From Triatoma infestans (lineage: Eukaryota; Arthropoda; Insecta; Hemiptera; Reduviidae), in assembly GCA_011037195.1 (NCBI GenBank), contig JAAEAF010003086.1, positions 21,630-85,629 of the forward strand: 64,000 nt of DNA. Reading direction: 5' to 3'. The notes beneath the pieces are model-generated. The model saw only the letters and a list, made by a program, of their open reading frames with translations. It had not been told where the DNA came from and did no database searches. This document shows, one piece after another, positions 2,391 to 57,545 of this stretch (within the stretch, counting starts at the first letter, position 1; each line of letters opens with the position of its first letter). Both the position numbers and the translations under genes were made by a program.

Positions 2391-2540
2391 CCACATCTCT
2401 ACATTCCAAAAATGGTATAGAAAATTTCTAAAAAACATTAAATTAAATCACTGAAAAAAAAAATAGGAGCTCGGTGGCTATTCACACATATTTTTTTACT
2501 TTTTCTTATCTGGTAAAAGTTGTAATCCTGTTAAATTAAC

Positions 2541-3190
2541 GAAATTCAGTATTCACCGGAAATACATGTTTTGAAGTCTCCTGAGTACGAAAATTATTTT
2601 TAGCGAATGGTCTGTATGAGTGTGTGTGTGTTTATGTGTGCAACAAAATATCTCAAAAACAAATAATCCGTAGGAAACTCGAATTTAGTATTCCGTTATG
2701 GTATTGCCATCGCATCTTACTCGAAGGTTTCGGGCAAAATCCATCAATCGAAAATGCAAATTGTCTGATTTTTTGTTGTTTTTTTTTTGTTTTTCTCGAA
2801 AACTGCTCCAACGATTTTTTTTTAAAAACTGCACATACTATCTGTACACATGAATGTCTATCACTTTTATTTGAAACATTTTCCAGTGAAAATTTTTTTG
2901 GGGGGTATCAGGAGGAACACTAACGTTAACATAACCTCTACAGTATCAATTTCAGTACAATTATGGTTCTGCCATTTCTATAATATTAATATATATCAGA
3001 AATATTGCTAGAATTCCAAATTTGAAGAGAATCGATAAAATGAAATCGCAATTTTACAATAAAAGTGATTTTAAGAGTTCCTTGGAATTTTCTCGAAAAC
3101 AGACTATGACGATTTCCAGTTAACTGGATATATTAACTGTACAGATATAGAGTTATCACTTTTACTTGAAAAATTTGTTTTTAGGTGAAT
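2541..3190 (+). mobile_element. diverged HINE-like repeat
   Basis: Recognisable landmarks of the window's main repeat family occur in order: TATTCACCGGAAATAC, GAAAATTATTTTTAGCGAATGGTCTGT, a short TG run, AACAAAATATCTCAAAAAC, TATTCCGTTATGGTATTGCCAT, then two ACTTTTATTTGAAA-CATTTTCC blocks. Divergence is far higher than in the copies at 27-33 kb, so this is an old copy or a separate subfamily. No coding potential. Confidence 0.55.
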
Positions 3191-9110: not shown

Positions 9111-9340
9111 GGGAATGGATTAGCTCAGTGGTTAGTGCACTGGACTATCACCGGAGGTTCCGGGTTCAAGTCCAGCTGTGCTGCCCGTAGATTTTCCCTT
9201 CCTAGGAGCCTCTACAGTTTACTGTGCCGTGATGGACAGTGTTGTCTGTAAAGAGAGAACACTGTCCGGAGGCCGGCAGTGCACTGAGAAGGTTCCGGAC
9301 GCCAATGACTATAATGTTGACGCGCTTTAAAGTAAAAAGA
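9111..9340 (+). mobile_element. tRNA-derived SINE, family 1
   Basis: The RNA polymerase III A box lies in GGATTAGCTCAGTGGTTAGTG and the B box in GGGTTCAAGTCC. The tRNA-unrelated body has CTTCCTAGGAGCCTCTAC, GTGATGGACAGTGTTGTCTG and GAGAACACTGTCCGGAGG. The 3' end reads GCCAATGACTATAATGTTGACGCGC. This is one of eight clear copies in the window (9.1, 11.6, 23.1, 37.9, 38.3, 47.0, 57.3 and 57.8 kb), plus one head-only fragment at 22.1 kb. Confidence 0.85.
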
Positions 9341-11557
9341 AAGTAAGAAAATAAAAGTCGTGATCGTTTAACATAAATTATTTTTAATTACTGGCCATGT
9401 TTTTTCTACAGAAGCAACGCTTTAGTTTCACGATCTTTATTACCATGGAGATTTGTTCAAAGTGAACTAATTACATCAAAGCTTTTTATTTTTAATTATA
9501 AAACTTAATATTATTTATTTACATATAACCATGGTATCTGTAACACTAATTTACTAGAAACGAATTTTTACACTTCTGCCTTGTTCACAAATAAAGGCTT
9601 TCTGTTTGAAATGTATAATGAAATATACATTCGAAATACAAAAACAGCAACAAAGTAACTTCCTCGCGATTGTTTATAGACAGATGTTCAATTGAATTCT
9701 ACAATAAATCTACAAAATTAAGTGCTGGCTATTGATTTTCTCTGAATTATATATAGTTATGTGTTTTATATATATATATATATATATGCAACATATACGT
9801 AGGGTGTATGGTTGCGCCTAACGTTTGATTCTTATCTTTGTTTAACCAACTAATATTTCATGTTTTTAAGTTTAGTTCAGAGATTCTGAAGACATCGCTG
9901 AAACTTTTAGATATGTAAGTTCCTAGTCCTTAAGTAAGGATATGTAAGTTCTCTGTTTTCCAACGGCAAGGAGCCTGCGTGTTATAGGGCATTATAGGGC
10001 CACATTTTTAATTAACCCAAAAATCGTTTATAAAGTGGTGCATTCCCCCCCCAAAACTCTTTATCATTCCCTCTTCTCTTTACAGGGCTGCTGAAGACAT
10101 AACCAGTAGAGAATCTATATCATCCTTACATTGTCTGGTTGAAGGCGGTTACTTATAATGAAATCTCAGAACTTGATTCTGGATTCGATCTAACTTTTAA
10201 CGTTTTTGTGTGGTACTTGATATAAACATTTAGTTGAAGTCATCTCTCTAAACGAATTGATTGAAAACCTTAACTCTGACGATGAATAAGAATCCGAAAA
10301 CGGTCAGAATCAAAATAATGAAGCCACGCTAAGATGGATAAAATTATAGAATTAAGAAAGTATATGCAGCACCCCTACTTAAAATTATCACAGACGGCCA
10401 CTGTCTCTTAACAATTTAAAAATTCAGTTTAATGATTAAAAACCTTTAATCCATCCAGGAAGAAACTTCTTACAAATTTCCCACTTTAAGGTTTTTCTGT
10501 TTAAGGTCTATTTATTTAAATGGTTATAATAAGTTTAAGAAAGGACCAAGAATATAAATTTAGAGAAGTTAAGTAACAAGACTTAACCTTGAATAAAGCC
10601 GCCGACTTCCTTTCTTGAATAAAGTGATGAACATTGTAAGAAAAGACCTAGTATATTTAATGTGAGTTGGGGGTGAAATAAAACTTTTGTGATAATTCAC
10701 TTACTGGTACTTAGTTTACTTAATAATGGCTGTTCATCAAAAACTTTAAGAATTAGCAGGCCTTCAGGAACAGTCGTAAGATATCTGAATTAATATGGAA
10801 ATATCCTATAAATTTAAATCACTTTTCTTTTGAAACCAGCATTCATTATTATTATATTATAGAAGATTTCAGAATCATAAAGTTTCATTAACTCTTGAAA
10901 GTTTTCTTTGTTTTGTTTTTTTTATTATAAAAAATAAAATAAAACAATCGTAACTATAATTTACATAAAACGAAATAAATAAATAAAAACTTTATTAATT
11001 TATGAAACTTTTATTAAATGAGAAAGAACTTTGTTAAAATATTAACGATAAAACTGATAGCCGTGTTATAAAAAAAATAGAAATTTTAATATTAATATTT
11101 CCTTATTATGATAAAAGATGCAGTCAGCTGTATAATGAGAATAAAAATAATAATAATAATAATATATAAATCTACTTTATCTATAAATAAAGTTAGTACT
11201 TTCAAATACCATAAATAAGGAGATGTTTTTTTAAAACCTCACAGGCTGCATTATCTATACTGGAAATCAATAGTGTTAATATAATTAAACTTGGCTAGCT
11301 TACCTGGTGAGTTTGTAATAAAAACAAACTTATGATGAAGGGAAATGTTTTAATTTATTAGATATTATTAAATACAGTTTACTTTATTAAAAGAATTAAA
11401 TAAAAATAAAAAATACTTGTTAGGAAAAATTACTTATTTGAATAATTCACTTAATGTTATTACAAATCTTGTGTGAAACACTCACATGAGTCCTACTATT
11501 ACTGATGTTCAAATTGTAAAATTATTCCTTAAAAAGTAGAATTTTTTTTTCTTAATT
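9341..11557. other. AT-rich sequence with (TA)n and one hammerhead-like motif
   Basis: A (TA)n microsatellite lies at about 9769-9787. The CTGACGA/GAAAACGGTC motif at 10274-10309 is listed separately. No coding region recognised. Confidence 0.5.
10274..10309 (+). ncRNA. hammerhead-like motif, second family (degraded stem)
   Basis: CTGACGA (10276-10282), one extra T, GAAT-AAGA-ATCC hairpin (10284-10295), GAAA (10296-10299), ACGGTC (10300-10305), then AGAA. The better-paired relative at 38821-38860 has GGAT/ATCC. Its layout is the same as 48-85 but the stem sequence differs. Stem I is only about 2 bp here, so activity is doubtful. Confidence 0.3.
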
Positions 11558-11757
11558 TAAGGCTCTTCAACATCTATGGTCATTAGCGTCCGGAGCACTG
11601 CCGGCCTCCGGACAGTGTTCTCTCGTTACAGACAACACTGTCCATCACCGAACAATGAGCTGTAGAGGCTCTTAGGAAGGAAAACTCTAGGGTAGCACTG
11701 CACTCGAACCCGGGACCTCCGCATGGGAGCCCAACGCGCTAACCTCTTAGCTTACCC
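11558..11757 (-). mobile_element. tRNA-derived SINE, family 1
   Basis: Minus-strand copy. The B-box complement GAACCCGGGACCTCC and A-box complement GCTAACCTCTTAGC lie at the right end; the 3' tail complement AACATCTATGGTCATTAGCG lies at the left. A C-run (11755-11764) follows the head. Confidence 0.85.
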
Positions 11758-12238
11758 CCCCCCCTTTAGAACTGTTTAATAAATATTTAGTTTAGTTTAG
11801 TTATCCTCTATAAATGTAGCAGGAAATGCACTACAAAATACGTCCATCCAAAGGTACGACAAAAAGTGTCGACAAAATTAACGACAAAATATACTCGTAT
11901 GTACTTAGCACGACAAATACCTTGCCCCGGCAATCAGAACTTTTTATTAAAGGAAAAACGCTTTTATTACAAGAATTGTAGCAAATGTACGAGTAGGAAT
12001 CACTGTATAAAGGCATTTTCCACTTCAGATGCGTACCACGGGTGGGTTTCAATCCGTGGCTTAGGAAGTCTGGATTAAGCAGCACGCAAGTAATAAAACT
12101 GATACCATTAAAAATCGGGCATGCGATAGTCAATAGAAATCCGAAAATGGTAAATTCAGAGAGAATTGTGACAACTGTATTATTCTAGATACTATGGAGC
12201 ACAGAATTAATCTTTTTGTAAAAAGGTTATGACTTGTC
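11758..12238. other. no gene recognised
   Basis: Overlapping open frames on both strands at about 11831-12133 show no recognised motif and are probably chance. Confidence 0.5.
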
Positions 12239-12452: not shown

Positions 12453-12816
12453 CTTGTCTATAAAATAATAGCCAATTATTAAAAACAATTGCTCAGCTTC
12501 CCTGACATAATGGATTCCAGAAACATAACAACATATTATAAAACACTTCTCGCAGCTAAAATTATAATTTAACGGAAGGAACCAACGATATACTAGGAAT
12601 TCAAACTATAAAATTTCATTTTTTTTCATTTGTTATTTAAGTATCATAATTGTTTATTTATTTATTTAAAAAAAAAGTGTTTCTACCGATAATTGATACT
12701 CCAGCAAATTTTGTTGTCCTCACAGAAAAATATACTTTTTATTTACAATTATCAATATAATTGTTAGGCTTATCTGCATATTTTTATCAATTTTTTCGCA
12801 TAATTACACAATAAAA
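12453..12816. other. AT-rich sequence, nothing recognised
   Basis: Low-complexity T- and A-rich DNA between a SINE and a HINE-like element. Confidence 0.5.
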
Positions 12817-13933
12817 AATCTGGTATGAAACACTCACACAACTTTCTCTTACTCCAGTTTTCAAAAAAGGTAACTGACAAATTTTATAGTGTAGTGTACC
12901 AAATTTAATGAAAATCGTCGAAATTCGTCGAAAACTGAAAAAAAAAAGTTCAGTAAAAGCGCACTTCCGGTTTACTAATTTTCTTGAAACTGGTAATTTT
13001 GCCAATCTATTTATTTCTAATTCATTTTGTTTGGATGATAGAATTGTATAATCAACAATGAAAGCACTTTAGAGAAAAACATAACCCCATCCCTCCCCCA
13101 AAAAAGTCCCCTTAAATGACATTACCGGAAAAAATGTTTCAATTAAAAGTTGTAGATCTTTTTATGTGTAGTTTACACACCTAGTTTAACGAAAATGGAT
13201 TCGTTTTAGAGAAAATACCAGAAAACTGAAAAATACTCTCAGTAAAAACGGACTTCACGTTATCTGATTTTTTCAAACTCGGAATTACAACAACATATTT
13301 AATTCTAATTAATTTTCGTTTGTATTCCAGAGAAATGTTTTAAATAAAAGTTGTAGTTCTTTGTATGTGTAATTGATGTAATAAGTTTCAAGAAAATCGT
13401 TTGAATCATTTTTTAGAAAATCGCAAAAAAGTATAAAAAAAATTCAGTAAAGTGGTACTTCCGGTTGAGGAATTTTGATATATAACCTACTGTCGGATTC
13501 CATGGTCATACCCATACGGAATATCATGTTTTAACTTTCTACGATTTTTCGTTTTTCAGATGTTCACATACATTATTATTATTATTTGTCTGTGCGGAGG
13601 GACCAAACCCTACGCTATCTAAAGCCTCACTAGCCCATATAGCTCTACCCCAAGAAAAACAACAACAAACCGAGTCTAGAACAAATATCCAGACCCAGGT
13701 CTAATCCATCTAAGATTCACCGCTAATAGCCCTGTCCGGGCCCCGATGAGCATTTTGGACTGCCGACAGACAACCAACTGAGCTCATCCATGTTCACATA
13801 CATACAAACAAACACACACACATACACCATTTTCTAGCACTTTTTTGGACTAGGGGACCTCAAAATGGATATTTCCGGTGAAAACTCGATATCGAAAATT
13901 TGACACGATTCTTAGTAGGAGTAACAGAAAGTA
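12817..13933 (-). mobile_element. HINE-like repeat carrying a nested SINE
   Basis: Minus-orientation copy. The left end is TCTGGTATGAAACACTCACAC and the inverted terminal word AACTTTCTCTTACTCC; the right end is TAGGAGTAACAGAAAGT. It contains two ACTTCCGG-bounded body units and a CA microsatellite. A SINE at 13574-13789 interrupts it just before the microsatellite. Without the SINE and one copy of the duplication it is about 890 bp. Non-coding. Confidence 0.8.
13574..13789 (-). mobile_element. SINE, family 3, with perfect 14-bp target duplication
   Basis: ATGTTCACATACAT occurs at 13560-13573 and again at 13790-13803, directly flanking the insert. On the minus strand the head reads GGATGAGCTCAGTTGG (A-box-like) and the tail ends GTCCCTCCGCACAGACAA followed by (ATA)n. 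The same tail, AGTCCCTCCCCACAGACAA, appears at 23371-23389 downstream of a family-1 head. Insertion post-dates the HINE copy. Confidence 0.8.
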
Positions 13934-16206: not shown

Positions 16207-16345
16207 TACTTTCTCTACTCCTAATAAGAGGAAGTATTGTATCGTGTCAAATTTTGATATCGAGTTTTCACCCGGAAATATCCGTTTGAGGTCCCTTGAG
16301 TCCAAAAAAGTGGTTTTTAGCAAATGGTCTGAGTGTTTTTTTGTT
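16207..16345 (+). mobile_element. HINE-like 5' fragment
   Basis: It begins ACTTTCTCTACTCCTAATAAG, then GGAAGTATTGTATCGTGTC, ATCGAGTTTTCACCCGGAAA, GGTCCCTTGAGTCC and GTGGTTTTTAGCAAATGGTC, and stops where the TG microsatellite normally begins. It defines the same 5' end as the full copies. Confidence 0.75.
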
Positions 16346-18365: not shown

Positions 18366-18375
18366 GTGTCTCTGT

Positions 18376-18378
<3 letters not shown>

Positions 18379-18413
<35 letters not shown>

Positions 18414-19118
18414 CAGCATAGCTCAATAACGAAATACCGTAGAAAGTTGGAACTTCATATTCTGTTTAGGTATCACTATGGAATCTGACGGTACGTTATC
18501 TGTCAAAATTCCTCAACCGCAAGTACCACTTTACTAGTTTTCTTTTTTACGTTTTTTGCGGCTTTATAAAAAATGGCACCGACAAGTTTCTTCAAACTTG
18601 GTATATCAACTACACATACAAAGAGCTACAACTTTTATATAAAACATTTCTCCGGCAAAATTAATTTAAGGGCACTTCTGGGGGGGATAGGTGGTTTTCA
18701 TCGTAACTGCTATTTCAGTTTATTAGACAATTCTGTCATCTAAATAATGTTAATTAGAATTAAATATGTTGTTGAAATTCTGAGTTTGAAAAAATCAGAT
18801 AACCGGAAGTGCGTTTGTTTTAACACTTTTCGCGATTTTCTCAAAAATGGCTCCGACGATTTTCTTAAAATTTATTATATAAACTAAACATCTCCAAAGT
18901 TCTACATCTTTTATTTAAAAATATTTCTCTGGGAAAATTCCTATAAGGGCACTTTTAGGGGAGGGGTGGGGTTACAGCTCCCTCTTAAGTGATATCATAG
19001 TTGATTATACAATTCTGTCGTCCAAACAAGATTAATTAAAAATTAATAGATGGCTAAAATTCCAAGTTATATGAATTAGTAAGCCGGAAGTGCGCTTTTA
19101 CTGAACAGTTTTTTACAA
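18379..19118 (+). mobile_element. HINE-like repeat lacking both ends
   Basis: It starts directly in a TG microsatellite (18379-18411), then AACAGCATAGCTCAATAACG, GGTATCACTATGGAATCTGAC, both CCGGAAGT-bounded body units, and GTAAGCCGGAAGTGCGCTTT. It stops at ACTGAACAGTTTTTT, about 150 bp before the usual 3' hairpin. The 5' 130 bp are also missing. Confidence 0.75.
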
Positions 19119-19152
19119 CCGTAGATGTTGACCCGCCTTAAATTTAAACAAA
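19119..19152 (+). mobile_element. family-1 SINE 3' tail fragment
   Basis: ACCGTAGATGTTGACCCGCC followed by TTAAATTTAAAC is the 3' end of the family-1 SINE, fused to a truncated HINE-like copy. Confidence 0.6.
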
Positions 19153-22896: not shown

Positions 22897-23222
22897 AAAT
22901 CATATTTGTTGAAATCTTAGTTTTATGTAGGGAAAACAGTTTCTTTTCAAAATTCAAAACAGGCTCAGATTCAGTAACAAAAGAAATTCAGAGCGCATCA
23001 CACTTTTTTGGAATAAATGCTGGTTGCTAAAGATTATTATTGAAAGAAGCCTGGCTTAAAGATAAAATGGAAAAGTCTTATATATAATAGTAGGTAGGGC
23101 ACAAAAATTGTACAAATACAACTTAGAATAAGAAAAGGGAAGGGATTAGCTCAGTGGTAACGCGCTGGACTAGCAATGCGGCGGACCCAGGTTCGTGTCC
23201 AGCTGCTGCCTTTAGATTTTTT
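22897..23222. repeat. right arm of long inverted repeat
   Basis: The reverse complement matches 22081-22435 at roughly 85-90 percent by eye. It begins in CGCAAAATCATATTTGTTG and ends in a plus-strand family-1 SINE head. Confidence 0.75.
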
Positions 23223-23400
23223 CTTCTTAGGTGCTTCTTACAGCTCACTGTCCGGTGATGGACAGTATTGTCTGTAACGAGAGAATACTGTCCGAGGCCG
23301 GTGCACTGAGGAGGCTACGAACTTTGTGGTAGTAATATGGGCACGGAAGGGCTTTGGATAGCATAGAGCTTAGTCCCTCCCCACAGACAATTAATTAATT
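23138..23400 (+). mobile_element. family-1 SINE with family-3 tail
   Basis: The head has GGATTAGCTCAGTGGTAACG and CAGGTTCGTGTCC, then the normal family-1 body (GTGATGGACAGTATTGTCTG). The 3' end differs from other family-1 copies: GGGCTTTGGATAGCATAGAG, CTTAGTCCCTCCCCACAGAC and (AATT)n. That end matches the family-3 SINE at 13574-13789, so the copy is either chimeric or a bridge between the families. Confidence 0.75.
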
Positions 23401-24343: not shown

Positions 24344-24535
24344 CACTTTCTCTTACAGCTAGTAAAAGGAAGTATTACGATTTTGCCAGATTTTCGAAAT
24401 TGTGCCCCCCCCCCCAAGACATATTTTTGAGACCCCTAAAGATAAAAAAAAAAAAAAAATATTTTTAACGAACGCTCTGTAAGTGAGTGTGTTTGTTGTG
24501 TGTGTATATGAATGAATAAAATATCTAAAAAAAGC
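24344..24535 (+). mobile_element. HINE-like 5' fragment, diverged
   Basis: Starts CACTTTCTCTTACAGCTAGT, then AAAAGGAAGTATTACG, CCAGATTTTCGAAATTGTG, a C run, TTTTTGAGACCCCTAAAG and GAACGCTCTGTAAGTGAGTG. These are the 5' landmarks in the same order as the full copies, at lower identity. Confidence 0.6.
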
Positions 24536-26440: not shown

Positions 26441-26614
26441 CCCAACTATCACTTTTACTTTTTAATAAAATCAAGTAATAAATAACAATAATTAAAAGGC
26501 TGTAACTGAGGTTTATGAATTTCACTACCTAGCTTATAAATAAGTAATAACTAACAGCCGAAAATTCACCTACAATCTATAAAAAAAAAGCAAAATCCTT
26601 ATTAAGTTCAAAGT

Positions 26615-27000
26615 TGGTATTCCGTTTAGTTACTACCCACCGCATTTGGACACCGAAGATTTCGGCCCAAAATTCATCACCGCAATTGCGACTTTACTGA
26701 ATGTTTTTATTAAATTGTTCAAAAACGATTTTGTTTAAACTTTGTATACTATCTACAAAACATAAATACTTATCACTTTTATTTAAAAACATTTTCCCAT
26801 GAAAATTCATTTTTTGGGGGGGTTCTGCTGGGGAAACAGTAGCGTTATGCTTTCCTCCTAAGAACCACTTCAGTATAATGTATTGTTTTACCAACTTCAT
26901 AATATTAATACACATTAGAAGTATTAATAGAGTTTCAAATTTGAAAACAATTTCTTAACCGGAAATGGTGATTTTTACTTTCTCTTATACACAATAGGTT
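26615..27000 (+). mobile_element. diverged HINE-like repeat
   Basis: Landmarks in order: TATTCCGTTTAGTTAC, ACTTTACTGAATG, TGTTCAAAAACGATTTTG, CACTTTTATTTAAAAACATT, TTTTTGGGGGGGTTCTGC, AATTTCTTAACCGGAAATGG and TTTACTTTCTCTTA. It directly precedes the best-preserved copy. Confidence 0.55.
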
Positions 27001-27050
27001 TTTGATTTTTTTTGGGGGGGGAATTTTTTTCAAAAACGGTTACAACTATT

Positions 27051-27191
27051 ACTTTCTCTTACTCCTAAGTAAGAGGAAGTATTCTAATCGTGTCAAATTT
27101 TCGATATCGAGTTTTCACCGGAAATATCCGTTTTGAGGTCCCCTGAGTCCAAAAAAGTGGTTTTTAGCAAATGGTCTGTGTGTGTGTGTGC

Positions 27192-27225
<34 letters not shown>

Positions 27226-28051
27226 GTGTATGTAAACAGCATAGCTCATAAACGAAAAATTGCAGAAAGTTCAAACTTGATATTCCGTTTCGGTATCACG
27301 ATGTGATCTGACAGTACATTTTATCTGTCAAAATTCCTCACTTTACTAGTTGGATTTTTTACTTTTTGCGATTTCTCAAAAATGGCTCCGACGATTTTCT
27401 TTAAACTTAAAACATCAACCACATACAAAGAACTACAACTTTTATTTGAAACATTTCTCCGGGAAAATGTATTGAAGGGCACTTTTGGGGAGGGGTCGGG
27501 TTAAGTTTCCATCTAAGTGCTATTTCAGTTTATTAGACAATTCTGTCATCTAAATAATATTAATTAGAATTAAATATGTTGTTGAAATTCCGAGTTTGAA
27601 AAAAATCGGATAACCGGAAGTGGTTTACTTTACCACTTTATAAATGATTTATTTACTTTTTCGCAATTTTCTCAAAAATGGCTCCGACGATTTTTTTGAA
27701 ACTTCGTATATAAACTAAACATGCAAAGATCTACAACTTTTATCTAAAACATTTCCCTGGGAAAATTTCTTTTAAGGGCACTTTTAGGGGAGGGGTGGGG
27801 TTAGATTTTCATCAAAGTGGCTATCCTAGTTGATTATACAATTCTATCATCCAAACATAATTAGTTAGAAATAAATAGATGGCTGAAATTCCGAGTTTCA
27901 AGAAAATTAGTAAACCGGAAGTGCGCTTTTACTGAACAGTTTTTTCAGTTTTCGACGAATTTCATTAAATTTGGTACACAAACTATAAAATTTGTCAATT
28001 ATCATTTTGAGAACTGGAGTAAGAGAAAGTTGTGTGAGTGTTTCACACCAG
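27051..28051 (+). mobile_element. HINE-like repeat, best full-length copy
   Basis: About 1.0 kb. The 5' end is ACTTTCTCTTACTCC, followed by TAAGTAAGAGGAAGT that can fold back on it. Then come ATCGAGTTTTCACCGGAAAT, GGTCCCCTGAGTCC and a (TG)n microsatellite (27177-27233). Next are CATAGCTCATAAACG and two units of about 296 bp starting at ATGGCTCCGACG (27382 and 27678), each ending in ACCGGAAGTG. Near the 3' end is GGAGTAAGAGAAAGT, the exact inverse of the 5' word, then the hairpin GTGTGAGTGTTTCACAC and CAGTTTTT. It has no ORF. The asymmetric inverted repeats, 3' hairpin, internal microsatellite and T-rich target match the known architecture of Helentron-associated elements. The rolling-circle class remains inference. 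Confidence 0.8.
27177..27233. repeat. (TG)n/(TATG)n microsatellite
   Basis: A long TG run with CG and TATG variants inside the HINE-like copy, at the same position as the microsatellite in other full copies. Confidence 0.9.
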
Positions 28052-28059
28052 TTTTTTTT

Positions 28060-29469: not shown

Positions 29470-30800
29470 TACTCCCCAGATACTTAACACAAAGCCAGAC
29501 AGTGTCAAAGACCTTTTCAATATCCATAAGGATTAAGCCAGTATGCTTTTTACTTTCCATCACTCCTAGTAATAAGAGGAAGTATTGTAATCGTGTCAAA
29601 TTTTCTATATCGAGTTTTCACCAGAAATATACGTTTTGAGGTCCCCTGAGTTAAAAAAAGTGGTTTTTAGAAACATGGTCTGTGTGTGTGTGTGTGTGTG
29701 TGTGAACAGCATAGCTCAAGTACGAAAAGTCACAGAAAGTTCAAACTTGATATTCCGTTTAGGTATCACCATAGGATTTGACAGTAGGTCAGCGGACAAA
29801 ATTCCTCAACCGGAAGCACCACTTTACCATATAGTTTTTTTCACTTTTTTGCAATTTTTTCCAAAATGGCTCAAACGATTTTCTTTAAAATTGGTATATC
29901 AACTACACATACAAAGAGCTACAATTTTTATTTGAAACATTTTTCCAGGAAAATGCATTTAAGGGCACTTTTAGGGGAGGAGGTGGATGGGTTATCCTCT
30001 AAAGTGCTATTTCAGTTTATTACACAATTCTATCGACTAAATAATATTAATTAGAATTAAATATGTTGTTGAAATTCCGAATTTGAAAAAATCGAATGAC
30101 CGGAAGTGCATTTTTACTGAAATGTATTTTTCAATTTTCTGGTGTTTTCAAGAAAACGGCTCCAACGATTTTCGTTAAACTACGAATGTAAACTGTGGTT
30201 CTTTATATGTGTGCATATAAAGAGCTACAAGTTTATTTGAAACATTTCTCCTGGTGAAGTCATTTAAAGGGGCTTTTGGGACAGGAGTGGGGTTATGTTT
30301 TTTTTTTCTAATACGCTATCATAGTTGATTATACAATTCTATAAATAGATGGCTAAAATTCCGAGTTTCCGAATGTGCGCAATTACTGAACATTTTATTC
30401 AGTTTTCGACAAACTCCAAGGAATTTCATCAAATTTGTAACACAAACCATAAAATTTGTCAATTAGGTACAATATTGAAAACTGAAGTAGGAGAAAGTTG
30501 TGTGAGTGTTTCACACCAGATTTTTTTCCATTAAATTTAATTGTAGTATAATCTACTATTCTGGCCAATAATTGTGAAACAGTAGAAACGCCTGTCTTAA
30601 ACCCAAACTGTTCTGCCCTAATTGTGTTATATGTATCTAAACGATTGTTTATTCTAATTAATATTATTTTCTCTAGAACTTTATTGATGGAACTTAATAG
30701 ACTTATGGGTCTATAGCTTTTGGGAACGGATGAAGGTCTACCGGGTTTACGGATTGCAGATTTACACTCCATAACTGCAATAGAAACCATAGAAAAATAC
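29470..30800 (-). pseudogene. LINE reverse transcriptase fragment split by a HINE-like insertion
   Basis: On the minus strand the RT fingers lie at 30800-30525: VPKSYRPISLLSSINKVLEK, then AEQFGFKTGVSTVSQLLARI and TTIKFNGKK. The palm motif A lies on the other side of the repeat at 29550-29470: TGLILMDIEKVFDTVW, followed by a stop. Together they are the contiguous start of a Jockey/I-type RT, separated only by the 970-bp HINE-like element in a run of A's. The catalytic YADD part is missing. The family's N-terminal endonuclease is also absent. Confidence 0.8.
29552..30522 (+). mobile_element. HINE-like repeat inserted in a LINE RT
   Basis: 5' end ACTTTCCATCACTCCTAG, microsatellite at 29682-29704, two body units, then GTAGGAGAAAGTTGTGTGAG and TGTTTCACACCAGAT. 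The flanking LINE RT reading joins across it, so the ends are fixed to within the flanking T run: AGTATGC-TTTT on the left and TTTTT-CCATTAAATTT on the right. Confidence 0.85.
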
Positions 30801-31612: not shown

Positions 31613-32453
31613 CCCAAAAAGTGGTTTTTAGCAAATGGTCTGTGTTCAAACTTGATATTCCGTTTAGGTATCACCATGGGATCTGACAGTACGTTATCGT
31701 CAAAATTCCTCAACCGGAAGTACCACTTTACTAGTTTTTTTTTTTTTTTTTTTACGTTTTTGCAAGTTTCTCAAAAATGGCTCCGACGATTTTCTTCAAA
31801 CTTGGTATATCAACTACACATACAAAGTGCTACAACTTTTATTTGAAACATTTCTCCGGAAAATTCATTTAAGGGCACTTGGGGGGGGGGGATTGGGTTA
31901 GGTTTTTATCTTAAGTGCTATTTCAATTTATTAGACAATTCTGTCGTTTAAATAATATTAATTAGAATTAAATATGTTGTCGAAATTCTGAGTTGGGAAA
32001 AAAATCGGATGACCGGAAATGCATTTACTTTACCACTTTACTAAATAATTTTTTCACTTTTTTGCGATTTTCTCAAAAATGACTTCAACGATTTTCTTGA
32101 AATATCCAATATAAACTACATATACAAAAATCTACAATTTTTATTTGAAACATTTCTCTGGGAAAAGTCATTTAAGGGCAATTTTAGTGGAAGGGGGTGT
32201 TTTTTTTGCTCTGAAGTGCTATCATAGTTGATTATACAATTCTATCATCCAAACAAACTTAATTAGAAATAAATAGATGGCTAAAATTCAAGTTTCAAGA
32301 AAATTAGTTAACCGGAAGTGCGCTTTTACTGAACAGTTTTATCAGTTTTCGACAAAATTCATTAAATTTGGTGGTACACAAACTATAAAATTTGTCAATT
32401 ATAATTTTGAGAACTGGAGTAAGTGAAAGTTGTGTGAGTGTTTCACACCAGAT
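31613..32453 (+). mobile_element. HINE-like repeat, 5'-truncated with internal deletion
   Basis: It begins at AAAAAGTGGTTTTTAGCAAA and jumps from GGTCTGTG straight to TTCAAACTTGATATTCCG, losing the microsatellite and about 40 bp. Both body units, the word GGAGTAAGTGAAAGT and the 3' hairpin GTGTGAGTGTTTCACAC followed by CAGATTTTTT are present. Confidence 0.8.
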
Positions 32454-37500: not shown

Positions 37501-37943
37501 ACAGAACATAACAACTCTGTCAGAAGAGGAATCGTGCGATTCAGGAAGCCCAATCAAAAAAAAAGAAGGGTAGGAAAATAAAATAAAATAATAAACTATT
37601 TCGAACCGTTTTTCTTTTCTTGAAAAAAAAAATATATAATGGCCACAGGCGATCAAATTGTTTCTTGTTTTCCAAACAAAATTAAAAATTTGGAAAAGGC
37701 CCATTAACAAATGCAATTTGCAAAGAATACGGTAGTATGAAGTCCAAATTTAGGACGCCAATTTAAAAGCTGAGGAAAGTGCAGGTCAAAGAAAAAAAAC
37801 GACGATACTAAAGTAAAAGAAACGAAAAAAATGGTGAGAAGAAAGTCAAAGCTATATTATAAACATTAACTATATTGTACTCATAAACTATATTGTACTC
37901 ATTTAAAGAGTCTATTAAATTAGACACCTATTAAATTAAATGG
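37501..37943. other. AT-rich sequence, nothing recognised
   Basis: Near-duplicate words AAACTATATTGTACTCAT occur twice near 37866-37905. No gene seen. Confidence 0.45.
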
Positions 37944-38167
37944 AAGGGATTAGCTAAGTGGTTAGCGCGTTGGACTCCCACGCGGAGGTCCCGGGTTCGA
38001 GTCCAGTGCTATCCTTAGATTTTTTCTTCCTAGGAGCCTCTACAGCTCACTGTTCGGTGATGGACAGTGTTGTCTGTAGCGAGAGAACACTGTCCGGAGG
38101 CTGACAGTGCACTGAGAAGTCTCCGGGCGCCAATGACCATAGATGTTGACGCGCCTCAAATTGAAAC
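37944..38167 (+). mobile_element. tRNA-derived SINE, family 1, near-consensus
   Basis: GGATTAGCTAAGTGGTTAGC (A box), GGTCCCGGGTTCGAGTCC (B box), CTTCCTAGGAGCCTCTACAG, GTGATGGACAGTGTTGTCTG, GAACACTGTCCGGAGG and CATAGATGTTGACGCGCC. It is one of the best-preserved copies and useful as a reference for the family, at about 224 bp. Confidence 0.9.
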
Positions 38168-38324
38168 AAAAAAATACTTTTCCTCTTTACTATTTGTTCA
38201 ATATTCATCTCGACTTTAATTTCATACGGCCAATAATAAATGTTGCACAGAATCACGAAGGCAAATTATAGAATACTTTATATAACCTATAGGGCCGTCA
38301 AAAATTTTTTTTTTTTTTCTATAA

Positions 38325-38494
38325 TTTTAAGGCGCGCCAACATCTATAGCCATTGGCGCCCGGAGCCTTCTCAGTGCAGTGCCGGCCTCTGGACAGGGTT
38401 CTCTCGTTACACAACACTGACCATCACCGGGAGCTCTAGAGGCTCCTAGGAAGAAAAAATCTAAGGGTAGCTCAGCTGGATTCGAACCCGGGTC
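38325..38494 (-). mobile_element. tRNA-derived SINE, family 1, head-truncated
   Basis: The 3' tail complement GGCGCGCCAACATCTATAGC is at the left and the B-box complement GGATTCGAACCCGGGTCC at the right. The A box is missing. It forms an inverted pair with the copy at 37944-38167. Confidence 0.85.
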
Positions 38495-40199
38495 CAAAAA
38501 TTCCTTTTTGATTGTATTGATACTTGATTACTTTCCAAAGAAGAAGATATGACTGCTCCAAAAAAAAAAATAAAGATGCACTTTGAAAAATGGATTAGTT
38601 TTTTGTGTCATCATATTCTGAGGAGCGATTGTTGCTATTATTATTATAACAAAAACTATCAGGAAACTATTAATTGACTCAAGATCCAAATTTTCTTGGA
38701 AAAATGTGAAATGTTTACTTGTTTAATCCTCTTTAGTCGTATTGTCGAATAAATGGGTGGGCACTGCAATGCTGGATAAGATTGAATTGGATTTTTCCGT
38801 CTTAACATGATTATTTTGGTTGCTTCTGACCGGTTTTGGATTCTTATCCATCATCAGAATAAGGCTACCAGGTTAATTCAACCACTGTGGCGCATGATAT
38901 TTCGAGTTGAAAGCCACTGCAGTTTTTAAGAAAAATGGGTAATTATTACAGAGCAAGTGGTTCGTGTTATTGCTGTAGTTGAAGATAGGAGTGATCACAG
39001 CAGGAATGTTATGGTTGCCTGATACTACCGTCAGTAGGGTAACTGTAAAACAAAAGAATGCACTCGCTGGCAAAGTTAGGGCAGACAACAGAATCACATG
39101 TGTCCGATTTATTAGAAATTCATACCATAAGAAATTGCATATGAACTGCTTCTGAAAGGCTTAAACACTTCCTTTTTGTTAATGGAGTTTCAGTCTGTGC
39201 TGAGTTTCAAACAATGGAAACTGTACGAACAAAGCTCGTCGAAATGAATTTCACTGCCTAAGAGGTAAGTTACAGTTGAAGATGGGAAGATGCGAAGTAC
39301 CATTGCATGGATTTTAGGGTTGTTCACCGTGTAACCATCGATTAGTCAATCTGGAATTTCGAGGGAACATCGCAATTGAACTGAGAAGGGTTGGGGGAAC
39401 GTGCTTCTTTCAAATAAGTTCTGTTTTCTTTCTTTATGCACCAAATGGGCGGCGAAAGCCTGGAAACGGCGAAAGAGTTTGCCGAAAGCCTGGAGAGAGC
39501 TAAGCATCAAGCAGTGTGAAGTGGGATTTCTTTGAAGGCAAAAGAAAAGGGATTTTTATAGAGCAGCGTAAGTAGGTCTAAGCAGAGTTTTCGGTCGACA
39601 TATTAACTTTCAAATTCAAGTAGAATTTTTGTTTTATTATAAGAAGAACAATTAATCAATTTTATAGTAATTGACAATTTAATAAACATTAATTTTAAAG
39701 TAAATTTCTAATTTTCACACAAGTGAAAAACGATCTAACATAAAATCAAGTTAACAGAAACTGGCGTGTTTTCTTCATGTATGAATACTTGAAGAATATA
39801 AGTAAATAAAATAAAAAATAACGTCTTTTCGCTCTATGTCAAGCACATACAAATATAAATGGTTTCTTGTAGAAAAATTGAACTCTGCTAAAATTCCATT
39901 TCTTTATTTCTTTTTTACAAACTATAGTCATTGTGTGACCCATTTCTAAGCAAAACTAGATTTTTTTTTCTCTCTCCATTTATAGAGAAACAACTTCAAA
40001 GGGATATTTGTTCCATTTCTTCTACTACTTTGCTTTTGTGAAATGTCATTTATTTTCTGTGAAGGTTAGAATTCTCCTTATTTTTGACATTCAATTTAAT
40101 TGCGAATTAGGAAATCTTGATATTTATTCGTATTACATCAAACAATGACGAGCGCTAAAATGGTTGAGTCAATACAATTTATATGTATAAAATCAATAA
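38495..40199. other. no gene recognised; GC-richer patch at 39280-39600
   Basis: Contains the hammerhead-like motif at 38821-38860 (listed separately). The patch at 39280-39600 has an internal near-repeat GCGAAAGCCTGGAAACGG / GCCGAAAGCCTGGAGAG and a 27-codon open frame starting about 39438. I cannot assign it to a known family or gene. Confidence 0.45.
38821..38860 (-). ncRNA. hammerhead-like motif, second family, well-paired stem
   Basis: Minus strand: CTGATGA (38857-38851), extra T, GGAT-AAGA-ATCC hairpin, AAAA, CCGG, TC, AGAA. It has the same order as 48-85 with a different stem II sequence (GGAT/ATCC instead of GGGC/GCCC). The GAAA box has become AAAA, and stem I is weak, so this copy is probably inactive. 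Confidence 0.35.
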
Positions 40200-41209: not shown

Positions 41210-42231
41210 TCTGGTGTGCAACACTCACACAACTTTCTCTTACTCCTGTTCTCAAAATTATAATTGACAAATGTTATAGTTTGTATACCAAATATAACGA
41301 AATTCGTCGAAAACTGAAAAAGCTGTTCAGAATAAGCGCACTCCCGGCATACAATTTTCTTAAAACTTGGAATTTTGGCCATCTGTATATTTCTAATTAA
41401 TTTTGTTTGGATGATAGAATTGTATAAACAACTATGATACCACTTTAGGGGAAGCTGCAACCCCATCACTCCCCTAAAACTGCCCTTACATGAATTTTTC
41501 CAGAGAAATGTCTTAAATGAAAGATGTACATCTTTGCATTTTTATTTTGTATACGAAGTTTCAAGAAAATCGTCGGAGCCATTTTTGAGAAAATCGCGAA
41601 AAAATGAAAGAATCATTTAGTAAAGTGTCAAAACAAACGCACTTCCGGTTATCTGATTTTTTCAAACTCGGAATTTCAACAACATATTGAATTCTACTTA
41701 ACATTATTTACATGACAGAATTGTCTAATAACCTGAAATAGCACTTTAGATGAAAACCTAACCCCACTCCTCCACCAAAAGTGCCCTTAAATGAATTTTC
41801 CTGGGAAGTTTAAATAAAAGTTGTAGTCTTGTATGTGTAGTTGATAGATAAGTTTATGAAAAGCGTCAGAGCCATTTTTGAACTATCGCAAAAACGTAAA
41901 AAAAAAACAAACTAGTAAAGTGGTACTCCGGTTGAGGAATATTGACACATAAACCACGTCAAATCCCATGGTGATACCTAAACGTAATATCAAGTTTGAA
42001 ACTTTCTAAGATTTTCGTTTTTGAGCTATGCTATAACATACTACATACAACACCACACCCACACACACACACACCACACAACATACATACAACACACACA
42101 CACACAATTTGCTAAAAACCACTTTTTTGGACTTAGGGGACCTCAAAACGGATATTTCCGGTGAAAACTCAATATCGAAAATTTGACAAGATTACAATAC
42201 TTCCTGTTACTACCAGGAGTAAGAGAAAGTA
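41210..42231 (-). mobile_element. HINE-like repeat, full length
   Basis: Left end TCTGGTGTGCAACACTCACAC with AACTTTCTCTTACTCC; right end ACTTCCTGTTACTACCAGGAGTAAGAGAAAGT. CA microsatellite at about 42046-42107. It has two body units with CGTCGGAGCCATTTTTGAG and AGCGTCAGAGCCATTTTTGA. It is about 1.02 kb, non-coding, in opposite orientation to the copy at 43311-44254. Confidence 0.85.
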
Positions 42232-43310: not shown

Positions 43311-44254
43311 ACCTTCTCTTACCTTATCTTCTAGTAAGTGGATATATAGTAATCGTGTCAAATTTTTGATATCGAGTTTTCACCGGAAATATCCCTTTTG
43401 AGGCCCGCTGAGTCTAAAAAAGAGGTTTTTAAAATGGTATATGTGTGTGTATATATACATATTAACAGCATAGCTCAAAAACGAAAAACCGTAGAAAGTT
43501 GAAACTTGATATTCCGTTTAGGTATCACCATGGGATCTGACAGTATGTTATCTGTCAAAATTCCTCCACCGGAGGTACTACTTTACAAGTTGATTTTTTT
43601 ACTTTTTTTGCGATTTTTTCAAGATAGACCCAACGATTTTCTTTAAACTTAATACGTCAACAACATATACAATGAGTACAACTTTTATTTCAAACATTTC
43701 TCCTGAAAAATTCATTTAAGGGTACCTTTGGGGGAGGAGTGAAGTTATGGCTTCCTCCAATGTGCTATTTCAGTTTATTAGACAATAATGTTAATTAAAA
43801 TTAAATATGTCGTTGAAATTCTGAGTTTGAAAATAATCGGATGCGGTTTTACTTGACCGCTTTAATAAATGATTTTTTCACTTTTTCGCGGTTTTCTCAA
43901 AAATGGCTCCAACGATTTTCTTGAAACTTCCTATATAAACTACACATACAAAGATCTTCAACTTTTATTTAAAACATTTCTCTGGGAAAATTCATTTAAG
44001 GGCATTTTTAAGGGAATGGTGGGGTTGTGTTTTTCTCTAAATTGCTATCATAGTTGATTATACAATTCTATCATCCAAACAAAATTAATTCGAAATAAAT
44101 AGATGGCCAAAATTCCGTGTTTTAAGAAACTTTACTGAACAGTATTTTCAGTTTTCGACGAATTTCATTAAATTTGGTATACTAACTATAAAATTTGTCA
44201 ATTATAATTTTGAGGACTGGAGTAAGAGAAAGTTATGTGAGTGTTTCACACCAG
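43311..44254 (+). mobile_element. HINE-like repeat, full length
   Basis: 5' end ACCTTCTCTTACC...TAGTAAGTGG, then ATCGAGTTTTCACCGGAAAT, GGTATCACCATGGGATCTGA, two body units, GGAGTAAGAGAAAGTTATG and the hairpin end TGAGTGTTTCACACCAGAT. The microsatellite is reduced to TGTGTGTGTATATATACAT. T runs flank both ends (TTTTTTTTTT on the left). Confidence 0.85.
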
Positions 44255-44559
44255 ATTTTTTTTTAGATGTTTTTTTGTACAGTAATTTAGAAGAAAAGAA
44301 AAATAAATAAGTTTGGCCAAAAATAGTGCAGCAAATTTTAACATATGGAAATTTAGTTAATACTTTAATAATTGATAAAGGTCGAAGGGAAAATTTTGTT
44401 TAGAAACAGACTTATGCAAGCAAAAGAAATGATTTAATAGGATGATAAAGGTGGATAAGAAAGAGCTAAGAATGCTTCAATATGGTAGATAAACAAGGAT
44501 ATATCTGACGAATTGAAATGGATGGCCGCCCTACCACTAGTTCTTAGAGGGGGGAAATT
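44255..44559. other. no gene recognised
   Basis: AT-rich spacer before the LTR-like segment. Confidence 0.45.
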
Positions 44560-46993: not shown

Positions 46994-47185
46994 GAGGAAG
47001 GGATTAGCTCAGCGGTAGCACGCTGACAAGCGGAGGACCCGCGTTCGAACCCGCGGAGGAGCACGCTGCCCTTATATTTTCTCTTCCTAGGAGCTCACTT
47101 CCGGTGATGGACAGTGTTGTCTGTAGCTAGAGAACACTGCTCGGAGGCCGCAGTGCATAGAGAAGGCTCCGTGGGGCACAATAAA
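46994..47185 (+). mobile_element. tRNA-derived SINE, family 1, diverged
   Basis: GGGATTAGCTCAGCGGTAGC (A box), GGACCCGCGTTCGAACCC (B box), CTTCCTAGGAGC, GTGATGGACAGTGTTGTCTG. The tail AAGGCTCCGTGGGGCACAAT with ATCTTTCAGGAAGTAGTGC resembles the copy at 57812-58016 and differs from the GACGCGCC tail, suggesting a subfamily. Confidence 0.8.
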
Positions 47186-47471: not shown

Positions 47472-47830
47472 TCTCGTACAACTTTTATTTAAAACATTTC
47501 TCTGAGAAAATTCATTTAAGGGCACTTTTAGGGCAGGAGTTGGGTTATGTTTTTCTCTAAAGTGCTATCATAGTTGAGTATACAATTCTATCATCCAAAC
47601 AAACAATCATCTTATTAGAAATTAATAACATATCATTAATTAGAAATAAATGGTTGGCCAAAATTCCGTGTTTCAAGAAAATTAGTAAACCGGAAGTGCG
47701 CTTTTACTGAACAGTTTTTTTCAGTTTTCGACGAATTTCATTAAATTTGGTACACAAACTATAAAATTTGTCAATTATAATTTTGAGAATTGGAGTAAGA
47801 GAAAGTTTTGCGAGTGTTTCACACCAAATT
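47472..47830 (+). mobile_element. HINE-like repeat, 3' half
   Basis: Starts at CGTACAACTTTTATTTAAAA within the second body unit, then GGGCACTTTTAGGGCAGGAG, AAACCGGAAGTGCGCTTTTA, GGAGTAAGAGAAAGTTTTG and the 3' hairpin CGAGTGTTTCACACC. A short tandem duplication (ATCTTATTAGAAATTAATA / ATCATTAATTAGAAATAAAT) lies at about 47608-47650. Confidence 0.8.

Positions 47831-50923: not shown

Positions 50924-50951
<28 letters not shown>
50924..50951. repeat. (TA)n microsatellite
   Basis: A TA run directly adjoining the left end of the fold-back element; another short TATATATA follows its right end. Confidence 0.85.
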
Positions 50952-50957
<6 letters not shown>

Positions 50958-51802
50958 GTCCCAAGGTATATGGGTAACGACTTTTTCTCGGAAACTAAGA
51001 TAGCTAGAAAAAAAAACTAAAAAATACGTTCCCCGTAGTTTTTTGTTAGAAATCCAAATTTAATTTGCAAATTTGTTTTGGTGTTTCCAGAAGCGAGATA
51101 CAGGCACCAACTTCATTTTTTCAAATGGGGAGGTGTGGTTTTTATTTAAGAAATAGATTCCTCTATTTTTTGTAAGAAAAATTTACTTGAACGGTTTTTT
51201 TTCTTTGAGCGATATTTTACAAGTTATGAATGAAAACATGATTCCTATAAGAAATTTCAAAATGATATTATAACGGTTTTTTTGATTGAATAAGAAGAAA
51301 AGTACTATTTTATTATAAATTTTACTCCTCATTAATTACAGATCTTGCTCGAACTTACCCCCACCATTAGAGATGCATGTGCTCTTTCCTGCCAATTGTA
51401 CCTTACGACCAAAGAAATACATCTCTAATGGTGGAGGCCAATTCGAGCAAGATCTGTAATTAATGAGGAGTAAAATTTATAATAAAATAGTACTTTTCTT
51501 CTTAGTCAATCAAAAAACCGTTATAATATCATTTTGAAATTTCTTATAGGAATCATGTTTTCATCTTAACTTGTAAAATATCGCTCAAAGAAAAAAACCG
51601 TTCTTAAATAAAAACCACACCTCCCCATTTGAAAAAATGAAGTTGGTGCCTGGATCTCGCTTCTCAAAGCACCAAAACAAATTTGCAAATTAAATTTAGA
51701 TTTCTAACAAAAAACTACGGGGACACGTATTTTTTAGTTTTTTTCTAGCTATCTTAGTTTCCGAGAAAAAGTCGTTATCCATATACCTTGGGACATCCTG
51801 TA
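50952..51802. mobile_element. fold-back MITE, arms about 400 bp, AGGGTGTCCC ends
   Basis: Left end TAGGGTGTCCCAAGGTATAT, right end ATATACCTTGGGACATCCTG TA. The arms (50952-51375 and 51420-51802) are inverted copies at very high identity, with a loop of about 44 bp. The left arm has an extra segment of about 42 bp near 51151-51192 missing from the right arm. Both flanks are TATA runs, consistent with insertion at TA. No transposase. The AGGGTGTCCC end is seen in several insect MITEs, but I cannot name the superfamily. Confidence 0.85.
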
Positions 51803-53884
51803 TATATAAGCAAGCCTAGATTAGAAGCGGCCTAGTTCTTAACGTAATCATTAGCTCGAACCTTGACAGAGGAAATAATCTTACATATCCAAAATATGAG
51901 TTCAACAACTTTTTAACAGCAGTTTTGTTTTGCCTCTTTAAATGGAAAACATACCATACTGAGGAGTACTTCAACTATCGGATTAAGTGTTAAAGCATTT
52001 TTTCTTATATAATATACTATTGTTTATAAGTTTCTTTCTGACAAGTACTTAGCCATTTGGCAATAAATTAATTAGAATTGCAAAAAATGTCATTGCTGAA
52101 ATTGTTCCAATATTTTTTTTATTATTTCAACGAATAATATTTTTTTTTTTTTAGTCAGAGAGTATTGTGACAAGTGACAACATTATAAATATAATCTTAA
52201 CCTCCATATAAAGTAAATGGGGAAAAAAAGAATTCTAGAAAAATGATAATTTGATACATTTAGTAAGATACCTTATTTATTGGCTTGAGGCAACAAATTT
52301 CTTATCTGATTTGACTTTTAATCAGGAAAAACATGTTACATTTGATAACCTTTAAATTTCAATATAGAAGCTCTTTGTGAACTTGTAGATTATCCAGAAC
52401 ATAATATCAACCAATAAATGAGAGAGATAGTATTTATTTGAAACTAAATCCTCAATTAATAATAAGGGAAATGAAAATATTCTCTTATATCTAAAGATAA
52501 CCATAAAGAAAGGTAACCAACATGAACCTTTAAAAGAGTAATGGATTAAATACAAATTCAAAATGAATTGTTAAACTCTTATTTTTTCCTTATTGTGGAC
52601 ATTATAACCATCACCATCAACTCTTCTTATTTTTTTTCTTTTGTTTTGCAACTGCTAGTCCTACTTTTATAACATATTAATAAGATATAATGTCTGAAGT
52701 AGACAAATGTATCTAGGCACACATATAAATTGGATATCTACTTCTCATCATAAAGCTGTTTACATGTTAAAGCAGACAGCACATAAATCACCGATAACTT
52801 TTGTTTCATTTCCTACAGGTTTGATGTTATTTTTGTTCATTACAGGTTCTTTGAATTTATTGATCTCCATTACTTTTAAATAAATAACATTTTCTTAAAG
52901 ATTAAACTAGCAATGATGTGACTATTCTGTTCAAAAAGAAAATATTGTTCCTTCATCAAGTAGTATAGTGAAAAAAATCATTAAATAGAAAAGCCCTGTT
53001 TTTCTAAAAAAAAAACAAAAAACAAAAACCTAATTATTGTGTCTCATCATTTTCTATGGCAGAAAAGTAAAGAACCCAAGTGAGATTAAAATTGAATCAT
53101 AATAATCAATATACCTATTAATTTTTTTCTTACCCTAATATTCAGGAAATGTATGAAATTGAATAAAATCATCCCAGTTTTTTTAGATTCAAGTCCTTAA
53201 ACCGGGAATACTCAACATCCCTTTAGATATTTTTTTTTTTTTTTTGCAGATGGGACTAGAAAACTAACTTTTACATTTCTTACCTTTTGTAGGGACGAAA
53301 AATAAGCTTAATATGACTTAGCAATAAAATATTATTTCAATTTTATACTTCAAGTTTTTCTTTTTAATTGGCATGAAGAAACAACAATGTATTTTTATTT
53401 AGCCCCAAAAAAAATCTTGTAAAATACTCCCAGGACTTTTTTTCTGACTACATAGTTATAAAACTGGCAAATTCTGACTACATAATTATAAAACTGACAA
53501 ATTTTTGTCAATCTTGAAATTTTTACTCACTTTATTAACTATGTAGATTATGGGAACCACACATTTTACTTGATGATTCTTTGGACATTAAGATTTTCCT
53601 GAATTGGACAACTTTAGCCCCAGCATTTCTATCATTCTCCCCAAAAAATTGGAATTTAGAGTTAAACCTAATTTTATAGTTCTCCAAAAATTATTTTTTC
53701 AGAAAAATCCTTCATATCAAACTTGACAGTTTATATATATGTGCAGTTAGCATTCATTTATGAGAAAATCGAATAGAAATGAAAAAAAACACATTCAGTA
53801 AATGGTGGCATTTTTGCTTGACTATTTCGATTGAAACCTTCAAATAGGATGATCGAATGATAGGTTTTTGTCCATGTAGCAGTC
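51803..53884. other. AT-rich sequence, nothing recognised
   Basis: A near-duplicate TCTGACTACATA(G/A)TTATAAAACTG occurs at 53444-53466 and 53473-53495. Weak HINE-like words are possible at 53400-53800 but not alignable by eye. A minus-strand open frame at 53754-53945 has no motif. Confidence 0.45.
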
Positions 53885-56640: not shown

Positions 56641-57327
56641 TCTTCAAATTTATGAAAATTTAATCCTGTTAGGTGATAAAGAGACAATGATCACTTTTGC
56701 CTGTTGCGAATTTAATTTTTCTTAATTCTAACGAAAGTGATTTTTCTTTTTCATTATTTTATTATTCTTATTATTCAATTATTGTATTTATTTAATTGAC
56801 ATTTAAATTCTAATTCTAAAGTAATTAAACTATTTATTAAAAATAATGAAAACATGTTTGTACAAACAAATAAGAAGTCATGGTTAGGATTAAATATTTT
56901 ATAAGACATTATTTTCAAAATCCCATTACAATTTGCCCCCTTTGTCTATGCATATTTATGAGTTAACAGAAAAAGTTTAATTAATTATTTTAACTTACCT
57001 CTAACAAGGCTGGAATGAAAGAAAATTACTTTTGTATATTTTGTTTGATTGGAAGTAATTTCTATTTCTGAAGTTAAATTAGCTATACCACGAACGTAAG
57101 TAAAAGAGAAATAACGAAAGAATGAAAAACTTGATAACAATATTAATTATTTCAACATGTATTTCATATAAAAAAATGTCGGGCTTTAGTTTTCAATTCA
57201 ACACTTTTAAGATAGGGTCCCATAAATTGGGAGCCAAGAGTTAATACAGAAGACAGATAATATCAAACTATTATCAATAACCGCTTATAAAATATAGTTA
57301 CTTTTAATAATTTGAAGGTAAAGGGAA
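56641..57327. other. AT-rich sequence, nothing recognised
   Basis: No gene or element end seen. Confidence 0.5.
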
Positions 57328-57545
57328 GGGAATAGCTAAGTGGTTAGCTTACTGGACTCCCACGCGGAGGTCCCTGATTCAAGTCCAGCTTGTTCCAGTT
57401 GTTGCCCCTAGATTTTTTTCTTTCTAGGAGCCCTAGTTGTTTGTAACGAGAGAACACAGTCCGGAGGCCGGCAGTGCACTGAGAAGGCTCCAGGCGCCAA
57501 TGACCATAGATGTTGACGCGCCTTAAATTAAAATAATAATAATAA
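57328..57545 (+). mobile_element. tRNA-derived SINE, family 1
   Basis: GGGAATAGCTAAGTGGTTAG, CACGCGGAGGTCCCTGATTC, AAGTCCAG, a body with an internal deletion (no GATGGACAGTG word), CACAGTCCGGAGGCCGGCAG, AATGACCATAGATGTTGACG and an (AAT)n tail. Confidence 0.85.

Follow-up and report, generated by a model that had tools for sequence, protein, structure and literature searches.

Copies of a repeat of about 1 kb are scattered over both strands of a 64,000-nucleotide stretch of the Triatoma infestans genome (contig JAAEAF010003086.1, positions 21,630 to 85,629; hereafter the window), and they raise the question of what kind of mobile element they represent. The first-pass annotation had proposed a non-coding family with the architecture of Helentron-associated (HINE) elements, such as DINE-1 of Drosophila. 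We consider it highly probable that the copies are non-autonomous rolling-circle transposons belonging to the Helitron2/Helentron type and form a HINE family in the DINE-1 sense, a judgement that covers both subgroups. This assignment rests on structure, and the structural features that can be tested match published descriptions (PMC4067079, PMC7492417). Elements of this kind are well known, and "new", if applied to the family, means merely that nothing searched here names it.

Anatomy and abundance of the family

In the reference copy (Table 1), a subterminal repeat at positions 1-15 is followed by its local complement (18-30), a TG microsatellite (127-183), two central repeats (289-873), the inverse of the 5' repeat (966-980), a palindrome (982-998), CAG and a T-run. 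DINE-1 and oyster HINEs have been published with this arrangement (PMC4067079, PMC7492417). The proposed order of a 5' repeat, its inverse about 35 bp before the 3' end, a 3' palindrome and then Ts was borne out, and its 3' part recurs at all seven complete 3' ends. HINEs have subterminal inverted repeats of 11-15 bp, and these are present, one near the 5' end and the other tens of bp from the 3' end: if flanking Ts are disregarded, the 5' repeat lies directly at the 5'-terminal A (0 nt), and the 3' repeat, measured from the base that precedes the T-run, extends from 22 to 36 bp. These distances differ slightly from those in mites. Across the seven complete 3' ends, each of which has the palindrome that HINEs carry after the 3' repeat, the repeat and palindrome together are nearly invariant (32 of 41 columns, the last four being Ts). 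Furthermore, where HINEs have either an inverted repeat beside the 5' subterminal repeat, as in DINE-1, or a palindromic subterminal repeat, we found the former; the local complement stands out clearly in the reference copy but has decayed in several others, and copy 12819-13932 has lost it.

HINEs also contain an internal microsatellite, central tandem repeats or both, and here both were found. The first-pass annotation was correct in reporting a microsatellite and mistaken in placing it mid-element: it lies to the left (127-183 of 1,002), and the middle is occupied by two tandem repeats of about 290 bp. The internal duplication is present in all five full copies, if patchily in 12819-13932; this copy exceeds the others in length because it carries a 216-bp insert, which has a 14-bp duplication of its own. 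The microsatellite is reported by TRF for three copies (at 27177, 42050 and 18378); it is shorter in copy 29552 and missing in copy 31613.

Searches of the whole window allowing up to three mismatches returned 21 matches to the 5' repeat ACTTTCTCTTACTCC, where 2.39 were expected, and eight to the 3' palindrome GTGTGAGTGTTTCACAC, where 0.07 were expected; neither count was reached in any of 100 shuffles. A family profile built from the five full copies and run with nhmmer (E <= 0.01) identified 24 pieces on both strands, some of them two parts of a single copy, which cover 10,126 bp (15.8%) of the window. The earlier count of about ten clear copies on both strands, plus older ones, is a fair one, as there are five full copies, four further clear pieces and a remainder of older relatives, and the five intervals that had been put forward for a consensus all proved to be copies with both ends. 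Among seven copies, pairwise identity is 78-92% over shared letters, so that no freshly moved pair exists within those seven. The window itself is AT-rich (32.6% GC) and holds several decayed reverse-transcriptase open reading frames (ORFs), and so has a eukaryotic appearance.

An eighth palindrome, at 11471-11487, is preceded by a degenerate repeat and has no element body upstream by profile. It was excluded from the 3'-end counts, and is perhaps the end of a related family.

Insertion junctions and target sites

To describe the 5' junctions we counted nine ends, those of the five full copies and those at 16208, 24345, 14716 and 59731. Not counted were 62387, which duplicates 59731 in tandem, and weaker candidates at 4612, 7850, 26977, 34813, 55638 and 2489. 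TT precedes seven of the nine, against a window background of 12.9-13.8%, and TTTTT precedes five, against about 1.1%. At the other side, 5-20 T follow each of the seven complete 3' ends; of 455 CAGA sites in the window, eight have at least five T next, and five of these are the copies themselves. The insertion sites are T-rich, as those of HINEs are, and full copies have 2 to 10 T on the 5' side and 5 to 20 on the 3' side.

A clear target-site duplication at most insertions, which the first-pass annotation had named as grounds for abandoning the class, was not seen: no duplication was found outside the T-runs in any of the five full copies, and their longest flanking duplications (TT, TTTTT, ATTTTTTTTT, TTTTT and ATT) all lie within or at the edge of those runs. 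By contrast, the 216-bp insert in 12819-13932 is flanked by a clean duplication of 14 bp, ATGTATGTGAACAT; being younger than the copy in which it sits, this insert illustrates only how a duplication appears in this DNA. Together with one copy of the duplication it occupies 13574-13803, in the microsatellite region, and it is retroposon-like, with an (AAT)n tail. Within the window, no match across a junction, that is, no DNA empty site, was detected for 14 copies.

For one insertion, a target could be examined at the protein level. Copy 29552-30520 splits a reverse-transcriptase frame of a long interspersed nuclear element (LINE) on the minus strand; eight relatives of this LINE were found, seven of which cover the site. 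If six As are kept at the join, the conserved Arg-Ile and Thr-Gly are spaced as in the seven relatives; in the alignment one extra residue of the LINE in the window falls further upstream, which leaves some chance of three As. As the relatives suggest about six A/T at the target and the filled site has five Ts on one side and seven on the other, Ts appear to have come with the insertion. This one inferred empty site suggests a gain of about six Ts (nine if three As), unless the T-runs lengthened later. The named relatives of two LINE ORFs, for one of them among the best 120 of 184, are mostly from arthropods (spider, ants and the fly Haematobia), and one record is labelled as a bacterial metagenome-assembled genome; by themselves these names do no more than suggest an arthropod.

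Coding capacity and search for a partner

The window contains 42 stop-to-stop ORFs with a length of 88 amino acids or more. A Pfam scan, at E <= 0.001 for ten ORFs and at E <= 0.1 for thirty, covered 40 of them, all except 12787-13068 and 29788-30054, each of which overlaps a copy. RVT_1 scored above the cut-off in four ORFs and RNase_H just below it in one, and four weak matches (DUF3981, VMAP-M14, Sec23_trunk and Ly49) fell well below their cut-offs. Seven ORFs of this length overlap copies. Among the five of these that were scanned, the single match is RVT_1, in the LINE flank of 29552-30520, and the two within full copies matched no Pfam family; as in HINEs, no coding capacity was recognised in the copies. 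A partner encoding a DDE transposase, the other finding held in advance to count against the class, was not seen among the 40 ORFs.

The end motifs had no matches in bacterial, archaeal, viral or plasmid sequence collections, which says little about animals, and no paper naming the family was among the matches to family strings in the main text of open-licence papers. The 15-base 5' repeat is present in a Panstrongylus megistus microsatellite primer at a (GTG)5 locus (PMC8140489). We treat this as a lead only, because another family string matches an unrelated cancer paper, so that chance matches of such length do occur.

Comparison with known systems

DINE-1 and other HINEs have been described as having 13-bp subterminal repeats (12-15 bp in mites), an inverted repeat close to the 5' one, a stem-loop at the 3' end, a microsatellite, central repeats and TT targets that are not modified upon insertion, and Thomas et al. 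report T-rich HINE targets at which the number of Ts varies between copies (PMC4067079). The T. infestans family resembles DINE-1 (INE-1, DNAREP1) of Drosophila in its subterminal inverted repeats, in a local inverted repeat that has its 5' arm within the 5' subterminal repeat, and in its microsatellite, central repeats, 3' stem-loop, TT or T-rich sites and, as far as the five full copies show, lack of a clear target-site duplication (PMC4067079). It differs in that its subterminal repeats are of 15 rather than 13 bp and in that no autonomous partner was found among the window ORFs; the likeness is one of structure, drawn without sequence alignment.

Cg_HINE of Crassostrea gigas likewise has a left module of subterminal inverted repeat, inverted repeat and microsatellite, then satellite-like tandem repeats, and on the right a subterminal inverted repeat plus palindrome. 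It occupies oligo-T sites without target-site duplication, comparable to the T-rich sites here, where the five full copies show no duplication outside T-runs (PMC7492417). However, Cg_HINE microsatellites have mostly 4-nt motifs and its subterminal repeats are normally 11-12 bp, whereas ours are TG-type and 15 bp, and, unlike Cg_HINE, the family described here has about two central units per full copy (PMC7492417). With HINE-Mo of Metaseiulus occidentalis, it shares subterminal inverted repeats of which one is close to the 5' end and the other lies tens of bp short of the 3' end, a palindrome near the 3' end, T-rich sites and a variable T number (PMC4067079); it differs in that its 5' stem needs a separate local complement, as in DINE-1, and HINE-Mo has 38-60 bp from repeat to 3' terminus, where the repeat here spans 22 to 36 bp. 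Likewise, in Helitron2 elements of Fusarium oxysporum (FoHeli), asymmetric terminal inverted repeats lie about 20-40 bp from the 3' terminus, and some FoHeli have hairpins at both termini; conversely, FoHeli are fungal, have a constant T number and use TNAT/A as target in two subgroups (PMC5148889).

Canonical Helitrons (Helitron1) are defined by 5' TC, 3' CTRR and insertion between A and T (PMC5148889). The family does not conform to this definition, as it begins with ACTTTC and ends in CAG(A) plus a T-run.

Alternative explanations

Could the copies instead be miniature inverted-repeat transposable elements (MITEs), that is, non-autonomous cut-and-paste DNA transposons with ACTTTCTCTTACTCC as terminal inverted repeat and an oligo-T target duplication hidden in the T-runs? 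The 15-bp inverted repeats exist, and within the T-runs there is room for a TTTTT duplication in two full copies and for ATTTTTTTTT in another of the five. However, two full copies permit at most TT and ATT, and the varying T number is unlike a fixed duplication. Furthermore, the inverted repeat lies at the very 5' end yet starts about 36 bp inside the 3' end, and all seven 3' ends have an extra palindrome, imperfect in four; we therefore regard a MITE as improbable. Even less probable is a short interspersed nuclear element (SINE) or other retroposon with an oligo-A/T tail. A T-run does adjoin one end, as this would require, but full copies have T-runs at both ends (at least two T on each side), and none of the five has a duplication outside them, in contrast to the clean one of the retroposon-like insert in 12819-13932. 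Inverted repeats of such a kind are not known as a retroposon feature. The least credible of these explanations is a dispersed satellite-like repeat moved by recombination rather than transposition: every full copy does contain tandem central units, but the copies have sharp common ends and unrelated flanks, and one is inserted within a LINE frame.

A further alternative divides the rolling-circle reading rather than competing with it, namely that the family is of Helitron2 type, without endonuclease, and not a strict Helentron. Both groups are compatible with asymmetric terminal inverted repeats, with a hairpin at each end and with T-runs as insertion sites; the target given for Helitron2 is TTTT with a T or C next, and that of Helentrons is TT (PMC5148889). 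The local complement, microsatellite and central repeats follow the DINE-1/HINE pattern, though none of them is decisive between the groups, and we think the Helitron2 option unlikely, though clearly less so than the MITE. Helentron and Helitron2 proper are separable only by the partner protein.

Several observations weigh against a rolling-circle HINE. The 5' stem of the reference copy has -8.8 kcal/mol as single-stranded DNA (z -3.72, equalled by none of 200 shuffles), but z values of the remaining six folded 5' ends range from -1.29 to 0.52, so that just one of seven clearly beats shuffles. Among eight 3' sequences the reference copy again folds best, with 5 of 200 shuffles as stable; for the others, 22 to 136 of 200 are. 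In addition to the imperfect 3' palindromes mentioned above, no covariation supports the 5' stem (no pair changed on both sides in nine rows), and its cells are paired in 84.2% of cases, against 45-68% for slid partners and 84.4% for shuffled ones. Nor are the ends conserved above the interior, the last 55 columns reaching 0.90, the first 32 columns 0.79 and the rest 0.83, with an interior maximum of 0.94. Evidence for hairpins in the family as a whole is weaker. Two older 5' flanks of the nine (24345 and 14716) end in TTTC, a duplication within the T-runs is possible, as at copy 43311, which permits ATTTTTTTTT, and neither a Helitron Rep nor a helicase was recognised among the 40 scanned ORFs.

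If the family is a rolling-circle HINE, a Rep/Helicase from an unseen autonomous element would recognise the 5' subterminal repeat with its local complement and nick at the T-run beside it. The helicase would peel off one strand, the inverse repeat plus palindrome would mark the 3' end, and the single strand would enter a T-rich site, so that nothing would be duplicated apart from a variable number of Ts. Slippage and unequal exchange may later alter the microsatellite and the central repeats.

Other repeats in the window

A dispersed family of about 200 bp, whose 5' part is tRNA-like (TTAGCTCAGTGGTTA ... GGTTCGAGTCC), is probably a tRNA-derived SINE; ARAGORN found no intact tRNA. Two oppositely oriented copies form an inverted repeat at 37987-38495. 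The string ACCGGAAGTG occurs nine times in the window, where 0.04 occurrences are expected. Eight of these (12962, 18802, 27613, 27914, 30099, 32311, 41640 and 47689) are in seven copies of the 1-kb family, none being in 43311-44255, and one (47096) is in a SINE-like repeat. We take ACCGGAAGTG to match an ETS-type binding core.

A tandem direct duplication (58690-59907 and 61247-62563; 99.7% identity across 1,053 bp and 89% across 167 bp) surrounds a 465-amino-acid LINE ORF, with a C-rich tract at 61405-61511. At 50944-51808 there is a large imperfect palindrome, which over 914 columns shows 84% identity with its reverse complement.

Table 1. Features of the 1-kb family and SINE-like repeats (window coordinates)
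Feature	Position	Strand	Basis
Full-length copy, reference	27051-28052	+	both ends, T-run each side
5' subterminal inverted repeat ACTTTCTCTTACTCC	27051-27065	+	motif search
Local complement of 5' repeat, forming a 13-bp stem with it in the reference copy	27068-27080	+	DNA folding
TG-type microsatellite	27177-27233	+	TRF
Central repeat unit 1 (80% identical to unit 2; TRF period 301)	27339-27622	+	profile, TRF
Central repeat unit 2	27634-27923	+	profile
3' subterminal inverted repeat GGAGTAAGAGAAAGT	28016-28030	+	motif search, 3'-end alignment
3' palindrome GTGTGA-gtgtt-TCACAC	28032-28048	+	motif search, folding, 3'-end alignment
Full-length copy within LINE reverse-transcriptase reading frame (frame on minus strand)	29552-30520	+	profile, frame analysis
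Full-length copy	43311-44255	+	profile
Full-length copy	41210-42230	-	profile
Full-length copy with 216-bp insert (14-bp target-site duplication), local complement of 5' repeat lost	12819-13932	-	profile
Copy without 5' end and microsatellite	31613-32452	+	profile
Internal copy, both ends gone	18373-19145	+	profile
Copy, 3' part	47476-47828	+	end motif, profile
Copy, 5' end only	16208-16345	+	end motif, profile
Older diverged copy	2518-3189	+	profile
Older diverged piece immediately upstream of reference copy	26586-27049	+	profile
Older relative, 5' end	24345-24510	+	end motif, profile
Older relative, 5' end; repeated by the tandem duplication at 62178-62387	59522-59731	-	end motif, profile
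SINE-like copies of about 200 bp	9111-9351, 11538-11767, 23133-23322, 37942-38178, 38307-38495, 46996-47171, 57323-57553, 57807-58012		

Significance

DINE-1 is the most abundant repeat in Drosophila melanogaster, and elements of its type have been annotated as MITEs in other genomes (PMC4067079). A correct family name alters repeat annotation and marks sites of past rolling-circle transposition. It is conceivable, although we would sooner doubt it than not, that the copies belong to a HINE lineage that is both undescribed and long-lived, accounts for about a sixth of the window, spreads ACCGGAAGTG (ETS-like) sites with most copies, and has as its driver a likewise undescribed Helentron or Helitron2 that shares its ends. 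Satellite DNA could be seeded by the central repeats of about 290 bp, a possibility also discussed for oyster HINEs (PMC7492417).
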